NCBI GenBank assembly: GCA_016181845.1
Contig: JACOYO010000003.1
Coordinates: 80,185-114,460 of the forward strand
Reading direction: 5' to 3'
DNA: 34,276 nucleotides
Origin: Parcubacteria group bacterium
GTDB lineage: Bacteria > Patescibacteriota > Minisyncoccia > Phycocordibacterales > 21-14-all-47-15
A model generated the notes under the pieces. That model searched no databases and was not told the DNA's origin. It was given only the letters and a program-made list of their open reading frames with translations. A program made the position numbers and the translations under genes. The stretch's first letter is position 1, and each line of letters opens with the position of its first letter. Positions 11,229-33,223 of the stretch are shown here, one piece after another.

Positions 11229-11376
11229 CGGGCCCACGAGGATTCTTTCCTTACAGGAACAGTACAGTTTTCGCATCGTGCTCGCTTCGCTCCGCGCGAT
11301 ATGCTCAAACTTTTCGAATCCTCACGCAAGCCAAATTGTTGGCTTGCTGTGGGCACTTCGTTCGCTTCGCTCTCTA
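11229..11376 (-). repeat. tRNA-tail element A, downstream of tRNA-Trp (type 1 core)
   Basis: Reading away from tRNA-Trp on the minus strand: a segment ending GCCCAC that complements the acceptor end; the 22-nt hairpin (11326-11347, stem GCAAGCCAA/TTGGCTTGC, loop of four); the inverted T-arm copy GAGGATTCGAA; the type 1 core AAAGTTTGAGCATAT...ATGCGAAAACTGTACTG; the small hairpin TTCCT-GTA-AGGAA; then a 17-base exact direct copy of the tRNA 3' end (CGGGCCCACGAGGATTC at 11229-11245, same as 11377-11393). The inverted and direct copies can close a stem around the core. Confidence 0.85.
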
Positions 11377-11447
11377 CGGGCCCACGAGGATTCGAACCTC
11401 GGTCAACGGTTTTGGAGACCGCTATTCTACCACTGAACTATAGGCCC
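11377..11447 (-). tRNA. tRNA-Trp (anticodon CCA)
   Basis: Acceptor GGGCCTA pairs with TGGGCCC; the anticodon arm GCGGT-CTCCAAA-ACCGT gives CCA; T-arm CGAGG-TTCGAAT-CCTCG. No CCA tail is encoded. It lies downstream of rpmG across a terminator, and element A follows it directly. A normal UGG-reading tRNA-Trp agrees with the standard code. Confidence 0.95.
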
Positions 11448-13058: not shown

Positions 13059-13220
13059 TTCGGAGCGAAGCGGAGAATGAGACGGAGAAAGTCGCCTGCG
13101 CGACTTTCGTGCAGGATTCGAAAAGTTTGAGCATATCGCGCGGAGTCCAGTTCTCAAACCAGACGAGCACGATGCGAAAACTGTACCGTTCCTGTAAGGA
13201 AAGAATCCTGCCCGGCGCAT
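13059..13220 (+). repeat. tRNA-tail element B, downstream of tRNA-Tyr (type 1 core)
   Basis: Order: GGAGCGAAGCGGAG segment; 22-nt hairpin 13087-13108 (GAAAGTCGC/GCGACTTTC, loop CTGC); GT; inverted T-arm GCAGGATTCGAA (13111-13122); type 1 core AAAGTTTGAGCATATCGCG...GATGCGAAAACTGTACC with a longer central loop than element A; small hairpin TTCCT-GTA-AGGAA; 18-base exact copy of the tRNA 3' end, GAATCCTGCCCGGCGCAT, at 13203-13220 (original at 13042-13059). The AT-rich islet 13.3-14.4 kb begins just beyond this copy. Confidence 0.85.
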
Positions 13221-13496: not shown

Positions 13497-13877
13497 ATGT
13501 TTCCATATTATAAATTTTTATTCCAACGAGCAAACTACCCAGAAAATTGGGACGGATTAAGAAAAGCGGTTTATCGTCGTGATAGATGGCAATGTCAAAA
13601 ATGTGGTATTAAAAATACTCAACTTCACGCGCACCATCAAACTCCATTGTCTATTGGCGGCTCAAACGATACGAGCAATCTCATTACTCTTTGCAAAAAT
13701 TGCCATATTGATTCCCACCCACACATGTGGCTAAAACGATGGAAAGAAAGCAATCCTCAAGCTGTGCTTGCGCTTCGTATTGTTACTCTTTCCACAGTAA
13801 TTTCATTACTCATAATATTTGGTTTTAGTTGGTGGAAAATTATAGCTTTAATTATTATATTCCAGTATTTATTCTGA
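13497..13877 (+). CDS. HNH-domain protein with C-terminal membrane tail
   Basis: The 126-residue product has a compact HNH nuclease domain at about 20-76: WDGLRKAVYRRDRWQC, CQKCGIKN (first CxxC), HAHHQTPLSIGG, DTSNLITLCKNCHIDSH (second CxxC and final His). The HH, N and H of the motif are all present, so it may be an active metal-dependent nuclease. Unlike common HNH proteins, residues 91-125 are hydrophobic (LRIVTLSTVISLLIIFGFSW...IIALIIIF), predicting one or two membrane passes. It lies one base after the small membrane protein gene, and both are AT-rich. A membrane-tethered nuclease could act on DNA being taken up or in defence; this is inference. It ends in TGA. Confidence 0.82.
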   Translation: MFPYYKFLFQRANYPENWDGLRKAVYRRDRWQCQKCGIKNTQLHAHHQTPLSIGGSNDTSNLITLCKNCHIDSHPHMWLKRWKESNPQAVLALRIVTLSTVISLLIIFGFSWWKIIALIIIFQYLF

Positions 13878-13920: not shown

Positions 13921-14448
13921 ATGAAAAAATCTGTAAACAACGTCGCGTATATAGACGGAGCAAATCTACACCACGGCATAAAACAGCTTGATTGGAATTT
14001 TGATTACGGTCGTTTCCGCGTATGGCTTCAAGAAAAATATAGCGTCACACAGACATATTTATTTCTCGGGATGGTGCCTAGGTATAAAGACCTTTATACC
14101 CAACTACAGGAATTTGGGTACACCCTTGTTTTCAAAGAAGTAATTTTTGATGGGGAGGGTAAGGCAAAAGGTAATTGTGACGCTGATATTGTTGTATCTG
14201 CGATGCAAAACGCATACGAGAATAGATTTGATAAAGCAATTCTTGTTTCAAGCGACGGAGATTATACTCCGCTTGTAAAGTTTTTAATGAGTAAAAATAA
14301 AATGGCGACTATCATATCGCCATACGAAACAAAAAAATGCTCCGTTTTGTTGAAAAGAACCGGTGTAAAAATTGCTTATATCACTGAACAGCAAACGATT
14401 CTAGAAACCCAAAAAGAAAAAGCCCCCGATGCGGACGAAACCGCATAA
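13921..14448 (+). CDS. NYN-domain protein (LabA/DUF88-like PIN-fold ribonuclease)
   Basis: NYN domains have a PIN-like fold and usually cleave RNA with acidic residues and a metal. The 175 residues include the three acidic clusters: YIDGANLHHGIK at 10-21 (Asp12), KGNCDADIVVSAMQNAYE around 85-102, and KAILVSSDGDYTPLVKFLMS around 107-126. The remaining strands (ATIISPYETKKCSVLLK, IAYITEQQ) complete the fold. The last residues overlap the terminator hairpin. It lies 43 bases after the HNH gene in the same AT-rich islet next to tRNA-Tyr; two nuclease-type genes together are notable. The substrate is unknown. Confidence 0.88.
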   Translation: MKKSVNNVAYIDGANLHHGIKQLDWNFDYGRFRVWLQEKYSVTQTYLFLGMVPRYKDLYTQLQEFGYTLVFKEVIFDGEGKAKGNCDADIVVSAMQNAYENRFDKAILVSSDGDYTPLVKFLMSKNKMATIISPYETKKCSVLLKRTGVKIAYITEQQTILETQKEKAPDADETA

Positions 14449-25221: not shown

Positions 25222-25293
25222 GGCCACGTAGCCAAGTGGTAAGGCATTCCTCTGCAAAAGGAATATTCGGGAGTTCGATTCTCCCCGTGGCCT
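25222..25293 (+). tRNA. tRNA-Cys (anticodon GCA)
   Basis: Acceptor GGCCACG pairs with CGTGGCC; anticodon arm TTCCT-CTGCAAA-AGGAA gives GCA; T-arm GGGAG-TTCGATT-CTCCC. No CCA is encoded. It is the first tRNA of the cluster after rbfA. Confidence 0.96.
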
Positions 25294-25453
25294 CAAGGTA
25301 ACGGAGCAAAGCAACTGCTTGCTTTGCGTGGAGAATCGAAAGTCGGAGCGATGCCCCGCTCGCAAGCGGGGCCGCGAGACGGGCTCGCGAAAATTTTTCA
25401 TCAGAAAAATTATTCGTGAGCGATTCTCCCCGTGGCCTCAAGGTAACGGAGCA
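25294..25453 (+). repeat. tRNA-tail element D, downstream of tRNA-Cys (type 2 core)
   Basis: Order: GGTAACGGA; 22-nt hairpin 25306-25327 (GCAAAGCAA/TTGCTTTGC, loop CTGC); GT; exact inverted T-arm GGAGAATCGAA; type 2 core GTCGGAGCGATG with hairpins GCCCCGC/GCGGGGC and CGCGAG/CTCGCG and an AT hairpin AATTTTTC/GAAAAATT; then a 33-base exact direct copy of the tRNA 3' end plus 15 bases of its trailer (25421-25453, original 25276-25308). The next tRNA starts two bases later. Confidence 0.85.
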
Positions 25454-25454
25454 C

Positions 25455-25536
25455 GCCCGGATGGCGGAATTGGTATACGCGCACGACTTAAAATCGTGTC
25501 CCGAAAGGGTTGTGGGTTCGACTCCCACTCCGGGCA
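25455..25536 (+). tRNA. tRNA-Leu (anticodon TAA)
   Basis: Acceptor GCCCGGA pairs with TCCGGGC; anticodon arm CACGA-CTTAAAA-TCGTG gives TAA; variable arm TCCCGAAAGGGT. No CCA is encoded. Its 5' end is two bases after element D, and no tail element follows it. Confidence 0.96.
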
Positions 25537-25587
25537 TAAGCGAACGAGTGGAGTATAAGCAATGTTAGTTAAAATTAAATAATACAT

Positions 25588-25610
25588 CCGCCCATAGCTG
25601 TCTTGGTAGA
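25588..25610 (+). pseudogene. 5' fragment of a tRNA-Lys gene
   Basis: CCGCCCATAGCT and TTGGTAGA match the start of tRNA-Lys(CTT) at 25655, but the D-arm between them is altered and nothing after the D-arm resembles a tRNA. It lies 67 bases before the intact gene and looks like a truncated duplicate. Confidence 0.6.
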
Positions 25611-25654
25611 AATCAAAAAGTAGTGGTAACATTTCTTTAAATATAAAAACATAT

Positions 25655-25727
25655 CCGCCCATAGCTCAGTTGGTAGAGCAACTGCCTCTTAAGCAGAAGG
25701 TCGTAGGTTCGAGCCCTACTGGGCGGA
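25655..25727 (+). tRNA. tRNA-Lys (anticodon CTT)
   Basis: Acceptor CCGCCCA pairs with TGGGCGG; anticodon loop CTCTTAA gives CTT; T-arm GTAGG-TTCGAGC-CCTAC. The first base is C, unusual but plausible. No CCA is encoded. Elements C, E and F follow in series. Confidence 0.94.
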
Positions 25728-25868
25728 CACGGAGCAAAGCGGAGTGTTTGCCCAAGCGAGCAAACAATTTTGCTCGCGTGTAGGGCGAGAAAAGTTTGAG
25801 CATATCCGCCTATGGCGGATGCGAAAACTGTACTGAATCTGTAAGATTCGAGCCCTACTGGGCGGACA
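25728..25868 (+). repeat. tRNA-tail element C, first after tRNA-Lys (type 1 core)
   Basis: Order: CACGGAGCAAAGCGGAG; GCCCA, complementary to the acceptor TGGGC; 22-nt hairpin 25756-25777 (GCGAGCAAA/TTTGCTCGC, loop CAAT); inverted T-arm GTAGGGCGAGAA; type 1 core AAAGTTTGAGCATAT and ATGCGAAAACTGTACTG, here closed by a perfect ATCCGCC/GGCGGAT stem; small hairpin AATCT-GTA-AGATT; 22-base direct copy of the tRNA 3' end at 25847-25868 (original 25708-25729). Confidence 0.85.
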
Positions 25869-25921
25869 AGCACGAAGTGATTGGACGGCCAGAGCAAGAC
25901 AACGGCTTGTCTTGCGTTAGG
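25861..25921 (+). repeat. 61-bp exact direct repeat, copy 1
   Basis: Bases 25861-25921 are identical to 26046-26106, 185 bases apart. The unit runs from the end of a tRNA-Lys acceptor copy (GGCGGACA) through the 22-nt hairpin to GTTAGG, marking the repeating module on which elements E and F are built. Confidence 0.92.
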
Positions 25922-26053
25922 GCTCGAAAGCCGTAGCGATGTTTTTGTTTTGCGGAGCGAAGAAGCGGAGCAAAGGCAAAAACCGCGAGGCGGGGCTGAT
26001 AAAAATTTCCGTTAGGAAATTTATTAGTAGCCGAGCCCTGACTTTGGCGGACA
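25869..26053 (+). repeat. tRNA-tail element E, second after tRNA-Lys (type 2 core)
   Basis: Order: trailer AGCACGAAGTGATTGGACGG; 22-nt hairpin 25894-25915 (GCAAGACAA/TTGTCTTGC, loop CGGC); GT; exact inverted T-arm TAGGGCTCGAA; type 2 core GCCGTAGCGATG with a TTTTTG/CAAAAA stem, CCGCGAG and an AT hairpin AAATTTCC/GGAAATTT; then an altered direct copy CCGAGCCCTGAC...GGCGGACA. This region to 26233 is the longest gene-free stretch and consists only of these repeats. Confidence 0.8.
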
Positions 26054-26106
26054 AGCACGAAGTGATTGGACGGCCAGAGCAAGACAACGGCTTGTCTTGC
26101 GTTAGG
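26046..26106 (+). repeat. 61-bp exact direct repeat, copy 2
   Basis: Identical to 25861-25921. After GTTAGG the two copies diverge at once into different cores (type 2 in E, type 3 in F), showing a sharp boundary between constant module and exchangeable core. Confidence 0.92.
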
Positions 26107-26211
26107 TTGAAAAGCGAATACATGGAGCTTTTCAAAACCTTTTGATATAGATTGCGAGTTTACGAGGCAATATATCCAAAAGGTGTACTGTTCCTGTAAG
26201 GAATCGAAAAG
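26054..26211 (+). repeat. tRNA-tail element F, third after tRNA-Lys (type 3 core)
   Basis: After the shared module and hairpin (26079-26100) comes a type 3 core: TGAAAAGC/GCTTTTCA (26108-26115, 26127-26134) with an 11-base loop; ACCTTTTG/CAAAAGGT (26137-26144, 26177-26184) enclosing ATATA/TATAT and TTGC/GCAA stems; then GTGTACTG and TTCCT-GTA-AGGAA. No tRNA 3' copy follows, so this end looks terminal or decayed. tRNA-Leu(TAG) begins 22 bases later. Confidence 0.8.
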
Positions 26212-26233
26212 ATGACTTAATTAAAATTAACAC

Positions 26234-32968: not shown

Positions 32969-33149
32969 ATTTGATACAGCCGGGGGGTTGAAATGCGAAC
33001 ACTTGGAGCATTTCAAGACCTTTTGAGAATTTTCATGAGTCTTGCGAAATGAAAAGTCCAAAAGGTGTACTGATTCTGTAAGAATTTGAACCCCACCAGT
33101 TCAGCGAAAGTGCCATCGGGCACTTTCTCGTCTGTACAAATACATTTGA
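32969..33149 (-). repeat. tRNA-tail element G in the 23S-5S spacer (type 3 core, inverted)
   Basis: It lies downstream of the tRNA-like gene on the minus strand. It has the 22-nt hairpin (33106-33127, GAAAGTGCC/GGCACTTTC, four-base loop), a T-arm-like piece, a type 3 core and a 15-base direct copy of the tRNA-like 3' end (ATTTGATACAGCCGG at 32969-32983 and 33144-33158). The core (TGAAATGC/GCATTTCA at 32989-33015; ACCTTTTG/CAAAAGGT at 33018-33066; GTGTACTGATTCTGTAAGAAT) matches element F but runs on the plus strand, opposite to the tRNA-like gene. Confidence 0.8.
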
Positions 33150-33222
33150 TACAGCCGGAGGGATTTGAACCCCCGTCTCCCAATCTTTTGGAAAAGGCGC
33201 TCTGCCATTGAGCTACGGCCGC
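33150..33222 (-). tRNA. tRNA-like gene with non-standard anticodon arm (possibly Gly)
   Basis: Acceptor GCGGCCG pairs with CGGCTGT (two G-T pairs), D-arm GCTC-AATGGCA-GAGC and T-arm GGGGG-TTCAAAT-CCCTC are good. The anticodon region GCCTTTTCCAAAAGATTGG does not form a normal 5-bp stem with a 7-base loop in any register I tried; CCAA-AAGA-TTGG could fold instead. TCC (Gly) or CCA (Trp) are the only plausible anticodons. No CCA is encoded. It may be a pseudogene or a processing signal within the rRNA operon. The position between 23S and 5S is uncommon. Confidence 0.55.
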
Positions 33223-33223
33223 A

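Follow-up and report, generated by a model that had tools for sequence, protein, structure and literature searches.

Structured elements behind tRNA genes in an order of Patescibacteria carry inverted and direct copies of the 3' end of their host tRNA

Across most of an order of Patescibacteria, short structured elements lie behind tRNA genes and enclose a shared core between an inverted and a direct copy of the 3' end of the very tRNA that they follow. That such elements form a real family, with cores held in common and ends that follow the host gene, was the original prediction from a single 34,276-nt stretch of DNA (hereafter the window), and it is borne out, on a far wider scale than first described, by the distribution and the covariation of the elements. 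We see about an even chance that they are miniature mobile structured repeats and that fold-back or template-switch DNA synthesis makes their ends from the target tRNA gene.

The window lies in contig C10 of a complete-looking 742-kb Patescibacteria MAG of the Parcubacteria group (G000), whose seryl-tRNA synthetase shares 60-69% identity with Parcubacteria-group MAGs such as Adlerbacteria, Kaiserbacteria and Nomurabacteria. The tRNA positions given earlier for the window were reproduced by ARAGORN and Rfam, and G000 itself was covered through its tRNA flanks and by searches. When its 44 tRNA 3' flanks were scanned for at least 11 nt of the tRNA 3' end within 300 nt, a direct copy was found in 18 and an inverted copy in 14, compared with 0.09% and 0.05%, respectively, of shuffled flanks. 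In all, roughly half of the tRNA genes of this genome have an element behind them. The hosts in G000 include Gly-tcc, Lys-ttt, Lys-ctt, Trp, Cys, Ile-gat, Ile-tat, Val-tac, four Arg, Glu-ttc, Pro-tgg, Gln-ttg, Tyr, Leu-gag, an intron-bearing tRNA-Asn and tmRNA. Tandem units are present at Leu-gag (two) and Ile-gat (at least two), and several contig ends fall inside elements, as expected from tandem arrays. By eye, two tRNA genes of G000 (L041, C9 near 1256-1358, and L014, C7 near 106337) carry apparent group I introns in the anticodon loop, and one of the two is then followed by an element.

The plan of an element is, in order, a 22-nt hairpin, an inverted copy of the T-arm, a core that forms a three-way junction (P1, P2) and, last, the 3' end of the tRNA in direct copy. 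A covariance model (R1) trained on 26 elements matches all seven elements that had been proposed in the window, after tRNA-Trp, tRNA-Tyr, tRNA-Cys, tRNA-Lys (three elements) and a tRNA-like gene; the Trp, Tyr and first Lys elements belong to the training set and the other four do not. The features of the window elements are:

11377..11447, minus strand: host tRNA-Trp (cca) (ARAGORN, Rfam)
11238-11348, minus strand: Trp element, whole model match (R1, E=3.2e-32; training sequence)
11326..11347, minus strand: 22-nt hairpin of the Trp element, 9 bp (sequence and model match)
11349-11354, minus strand: acceptor complement GCCCAC of the Trp element (sequence)
11313..11323, minus strand: inverted copy of the tRNA-Trp T-arm 3' strand, GAGGATTCGAA (sequence)
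11246..11312, minus strand: type-1 core of the Trp element, P1 with tandem GA/GA, GTACTG, P2 with GTA loop (R1)
11229..11245, minus strand: direct copy of the tRNA-Trp 3' end, exact, 17 nt (sequence)
13086..13210, plus strand: Tyr element, hairpin, inverted T-arm copy and type-1 core (R1, E=7.7e-32; training sequence)
13203..13220, plus strand: direct copy of the tRNA-Tyr 3' end, exact, 18 nt (sequence)
25276..25308, plus strand: 33-nt repeat, copy 1, tRNA-Cys 3' end and 15-16 nt of trailer (sequence)
25305..25429, plus strand: Cys element, type-3 core (R1, E=5e-8; type-3 alignment A3)
25421..25453, plus strand: 33-nt repeat at Cys, copy 2, exact (sequence)
25755..25857, plus strand: Lys element 1, type-1 core (R1, E=7.5e-26; training sequence)
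25847..25868, plus strand: direct copy of the tRNA-Lys 3' end in Lys element 1, exact, 22 nt (sequence)
25893..26040, plus strand: Lys element 2, type-3 core, right copy imperfect (R1, E=1.8e-7; A3)
26078..26206, plus strand: Lys element 3, hairpin with loop GAATACATGGA, then P1/P2 (R1, E=1.5e-8)
33015..33086, plus strand: core of element G, in opposite orientation to the tRNA-like gene (R1, E=1.3e-7)
33148-33223, minus strand: tRNA-like gene hosting element G, between LSU and 5S rRNA

It can be seen that most of the proposed anatomy is present, with qualifications. The hairpin, of 9 bp with a 4-nt loop, does have a constant length in most elements. Exact direct copies were found as described at Trp (17 nt), Tyr (18 nt), Cys (33 nt) and the first Lys element (22 nt), but the right copy of Lys element 2 is imperfect, and on the right of Lys element 3 a copy of the tRNA end is lacking. 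The inverted T-arm copies, of 11-12 nt, are exact. Element G lies on the plus strand, opposite to its tRNA, so that what it has of the T-arm cannot be called an inverted copy in the ordinary way. The cores conform to one three-way-junction plan but fall into at least two classes rather than one: Trp, Tyr and Lys-1 are of type 1/2, as is the P1/P2 portion of Lys-3 and G, and Cys and Lys-2 are of type 3, and further hairpin modules accompany the core classes. A complement to the acceptor strand is indeed present before the hairpin, but it usually forms part of a palindrome that also takes in the 3' end and trailer of the tRNA itself.

The tRNA-like gene at 33148-33223 has no anticodon assigned, and its ortholog in the same-genus genome G001 (L179) also has an element behind it. 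Just behind the Tyr element lie an HNH-like ORF (window 13497-13877) and an NYN-like ORF (13921-14448), both named by eye. Degenerate copies of the 5' end of the same tRNA (12/14 nt) occur 47-76 nt upstream of Lys-ctt, Thr-ggt, Glu-ctc and, in G001, Val-tac (loci: window 25589-25654, L011, L030 and, in G001, L163); they are possibly a 5'-side counterpart of the process that makes the elements.

In an alignment of 26 elements (A1), which contains the constant 22-nt hairpin, the T-stem joining the inverted and direct copies, P1, a TAC linker and P2, 92.6% of cells are paired, and 173 are double-changed, against 50 after shuffling and 26-36 with the partner slid. For 68 matches from other loci, 96.5% of cells are paired and 591 are double-changed, against 159 shuffled and 40-95 slid, in an alignment that was fitted to the model, with a few loci overlapping the training set, and hence leans towards the structure. 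The 591 double changes stand beside approximately 35 one-sided ones, and the stems are almost purely Watson-Crick; G-U pairs are scarce in the elements, and likewise in the acceptor and T stems of the G000 tRNAs (19/540). Since the hairpin, P1 and P2 each covary, the signal is not confined to the tRNA-derived stem, which answers the concern, raised with the original prediction, that covariation might not go beyond the tRNA-derived parts.

Sequence conservation in the core is found outside the stems. In A1, P1 often has a GA/GA internal loop, the TAC linker is invariant and P2 has a GTA loop; the type-3 class (A3) has a GAAA start in common with the other class and usually ends in GTGACC. That such motifs (GAAA, GA/GA, GTAC, GTA loop) are conserved although unpaired implies that something recognises them specifically. 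Folding is slightly better on the tRNA strand than on its complement (32/46, p=0.004). Cores at different isotypes have a median similarity of approximately 0.62 within or between genomes, with no clear excess by genome or isotype, a comparison that best-match sampling may blur. The sequence GCGAAGC, which we take to be an ultra-stable mini-hairpin and which may hint at folding of single-stranded DNA, occurs in many trailers. P1/P2 modules were also seen away from tRNAs (L043, L044 and L045 in G000; L084; L091), often accompanied by a hairpin with GAATACWTGGA as its loop; the module at L044 lies behind the end of a protein gene, between two similar hairpins.

Searching related genomes with the covariance model recovered the family in 214 of the 297 genomes of the order, so that the worry that relatives would hold no further copies did not materialise. 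Matches extend to 126 of the 165 sampled genera, often with a dozen or more elements per genome. In the class sample 30 of 188 genomes match at 1e-5, six of these being from the order, and the phylum sample adds only four matching genomes from outside the class. In class and phylum matches outside the order the cores differ but the plan of tRNA, trailer, 22-nt hairpin, inverted T-arm, branched core and direct copy is kept, sometimes in tandem. Among 60 sampled matches from the order, 47 have an annotated tRNA on the same strand no more than 120 nt upstream and none has an upstream tRNA that is antisense only; some of the remaining 13 show, by eye, a visible T-arm, are tmRNA-like or start near a contig end.

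The original prediction called for occupied and empty sites to be compared between close relatives, and both kinds were found when G000 was set, tRNA by tRNA, against G001 (67% complete). G000 has an element behind Ile-gat, Lys-ctt, Cys, Tyr, Arg-tct and Gln-ttg, sites that are empty in G001, and the reverse is true of Gly-ccc and Leu-caa. Around tRNA-Cys the two genomes agree in gene order, and the next tRNA of G001 stands directly behind tRNA-Cys, the site being empty. Ser-gct and Ser-gga have full elements in G001 but scars in G000. Glu-ttc carries the same core in both genomes, and the cores at Ile-tat, Asn and Trp differ between them. Sites that are empty, or hold another core, in both directions within a genus indicate that sites turn over, and identical arrays inherited vertically at every tRNA, which would have spoken against movement, were not seen. 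On these sequence comparisons mobility, or at least rapid turnover, of the elements is supported; the turnover could also be differential loss from an ancestral set.

Within G000, the cores behind Pro and Ile-gat are 100% identical over 92 nt and that behind tmRNA is 96% identical, while the T-arm ends and the outer hairpin differ among the three elements, each fitting its own host. Two paralogous tRNA-Ser elements of G001 (L168 and L171) differ by a structured module of approximately 85 nt inserted in one of them, inside the type-3 core. Behind tRNA-Thr-tgt (L009, G000 C2:15781; L159 in G001) there is a much longer duplication, from the anticodon arm to the 3' end, with another hairpin module; it is conserved in both species.

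The predicted acceptor/T-arm minihelix of the host tRNA is not generally supported. At 45 relative loci we scored the positions at which the tRNA and the right copy of its element differ: the left strand is complementary to the tRNA in 31 cases, to the right copy in three and to neither in three, many of these cases coming from right copies with a 1-nt insertion or shift. As for the acceptor complement, 13 of 18 elements without a right acceptor copy retain it, and so do 16 of 28 with one. The inverted copy therefore goes with the tRNA gene and not with the right copy. Overall, the right acceptor copy is present in 28/46 elements, the complement in 29/46 and both in 16/46, with no correlation between them; the acceptor strands and T stem were not kept and paired across the 46 elements, and a closed minihelix is possible in only about a third. 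In addition, at 32 of 45 loci a terminator-like trailer, as judged by an A-run and T-run test only, separates the tRNA from the element. The direct copy usually ends at the mature tRNA 3' end, identity falling from 0.89 at the first base behind N73 to 0.61, 0.57 and background, and this stop favours a tRNA-end reading. Longer direct repeats that enter the trailer are found at Cys (33 nt), a Lys locus in G024 (36 nt) and a Trp locus in G040 (50 nt), where the right copies run approximately 15-33 nt past the mature end.

Direct, inverted and direct copies of one stretch are arranged in series in G000 and its relatives, and copying of the tRNA gene may account for them. The elements would lodge at tRNA (and tmRNA) 3' ends, with the folding core (P1, P2) and the 22-nt hairpin as the shared part. 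New DNA would copy the 3' part of the tRNA back on itself, through trailer, acceptor and T-stem to the T-loop, giving the inverted copy; synthesis would then switch to the core, and a second switch at the conserved T-loop would copy the tRNA 3' end forward, giving the direct copy. The product would be an inverted triplication of the tRNA 3' end enclosing the core, whose direct repeats would then permit tandem arrays and precise loss. Fold-back replication errors are known to yield direct/inverted/direct triplications, which form through fold-back of a 3' end or its switch to another template and are lost precisely in E. coli by slippage (PMC13334657), and template switching both makes and repairs perfect hairpins, with double changes that need no wobble intermediates (PMC8794818). 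The palindromic trailers, the breakpoints at the T-loop and the near-exclusively Watson-Crick stems fit template-switch copying. Copying of this kind leaves unexplained the hairpin that lies exactly at the acceptor/T junction, between two inverted parts, as well as the conserved unpaired motifs. The slightly better folding of the tRNA strand and the similarity of cores, which shows no clear excess within genomes, also speak against this reading, and plain target duplication does not predict that the direct copy stops at the mature tRNA end. We presume a core that moves in trans, with host functions sufficing in place of a dedicated enzyme.

A serious rival is that the element is a functional RNA. 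In such a model the pre-tRNA would read into the element, and the transcript would take up a predicted tRNA-like fold, with an acceptor/T stem, a 9-bp hairpin at the elbow and a three-way junction replacing the T-loop, to be processed or to act as a decoy or regulator. This we hold to be possible but rather unlikely. Strong covariation and conserved unpaired motifs over most of the order, a hairpin constant at 22 nt, a tRNA strand that folds slightly better, a direct copy ending at the mature tRNA 3' end, and same-strand tRNAs within 120 nt of 47/60 matches, with none antisense only, all speak for an RNA; however, 32 of 45 trailers resemble intrinsic terminators ahead of the element, and the acceptor complement is kept regardless of the right acceptor copy, which is missing in 18/46. 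An inverted copy that matches the tRNA could also misfold it, many tRNAs lack the element in one of the two same-genus species, and element G is inverted.

The other explanations invoke known mobilisers. Reverse transcription of a core RNA, with a template switch at the T-loop onto the mature tRNA 3' end and insertion of the cDNA, would account for a direct copy that spans T-loop to mature end. It does not predict the inverted copy or the long repeats that contain trailer, and it is already weakened by the reverse transcriptase domain PF00078, which is lacking from the element-rich G000, G005, G012, G040, G143 and G212 and present in several element-free genomes; we consider it improbable. Tyrosine-recombinase integration classically leaves tRNA 3' ends directly repeated, and since some of the present repeats reach into the trailer the elements might be remnants of tRNA-targeting integrative elements, att duplications with small inserts. 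Nearly every genome, element-rich or element-poor, has about one Xer-like PF00589 integrase, however, with no integrase set specific for each tRNA; the same core occurs at many isotypes with different ends, and neither the inverted copy nor a covarying core is an att feature, which leaves this origin very improbable. The elements are too short to hold an integrase gene. No more credence is due to REP/REPIN-type repeats moved by a RAYT (Y1) transposase: these too are small non-coding hairpin repeats, and RAYT genes are common in the group, with five matches in G000, but Y1_Tnp (PF01797) is without a match at E<=0.001 in the element-bearing G005, G010, G012 and G032, and the one RAYT inspected in G000 is flanked by another palindrome, TTACAAAGGTTCCTCCTTTGTAA. 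That RAYT-like Y1 gene is L107 (G000 C2:48804-49025), and its flanking palindrome is also found elsewhere in the genome. As candidate mobilisers, Y1 transposase, reverse transcriptase and tyrosine integrase were rejected, their presence not tracking that of the elements. In a narrow test for viral carriage, the exact pattern of one P2 variant had no match in viral contigs.

Returning to copying of the ends from the target gene, we give about even odds to the elements being a new class of bacterial repeat, whose conserved structured core would enlist the target tRNA gene as template for both ends. One core could then be fitted to whichever tRNA it meets, its inverted and direct copies made to measure, across most of an order of a candidate phylum. 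Patescibacteria genomes are very small, yet many hold a dozen or more elements beside essential genes. Were the ends copied from the target, the repeat could match any tRNA without a sequence-specific integrase, and one could use it as a natural system to ask whether perfect hairpins are built by template switching. If the elements act instead as RNA, they would be a widespread tRNA-linked RNA class without known function. Either reading explains the tandem arrays and the assembly breaks at tRNA genes in these genomes.

In agreement with the earlier remark that no described family has this design, no element matches Rfam 15: at gathering score the window gives only tRNA and rRNA, and at a relaxed threshold six element loci gave nothing credible. 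No description of these elements was found in the open-access full-text literature searched, and the novelty of the family is provisional. The distal repeats of E. coli tyrT (rtT RNA) are tandem units behind a tRNA, each with a copy of its 3' end, at one tRNA in one lineage; to our knowledge they have neither an inverted copy nor a shared core. Tandem units with a 3'-end copy behind a tRNA are common to those repeats and the present elements, in which there was no rtT match from Rfam. In tmRNA and viral tRNA-like structures an acceptor and T-arm helix is retained, with a working acceptor end, and other domains replace the rest, whereas both acceptor strands occur together in only 16/46 of the present elements.

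We know of no copying of ends from the target in the double-hairpin elements or GC clusters of fungal mitochondria. These (PMC4478555) resemble the present repeats in being short mobile DNA of small genomes whose mobilising agent is unclear, and differ in not being tied to tRNA 3' ends. REP sequences, BIMEs and REPINs with their RAYTs (PMC3116915, PMC2817692) are likewise miniature, non-autonomous and extragenic, with hairpins in single-stranded DNA or RNA; REPINs, however, are described as randomly distributed in extragenic space, whereas the present elements have tRNA 3' ends as their site and ends that copy the host gene, with no RAYT link found. The inverted triplications (PMC13334657) share with our elements the direct-inverted-direct order, the capacity to form hairpins and precise loss between direct repeats. 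Their copies average approximately 150 bp with a 30-bp spacer and have no shared core, whereas the present elements repeat approximately 18-36 nt of a tRNA gene, at a fixed position in that gene, and have a foreign conserved core and a hairpin inserted between the copies.
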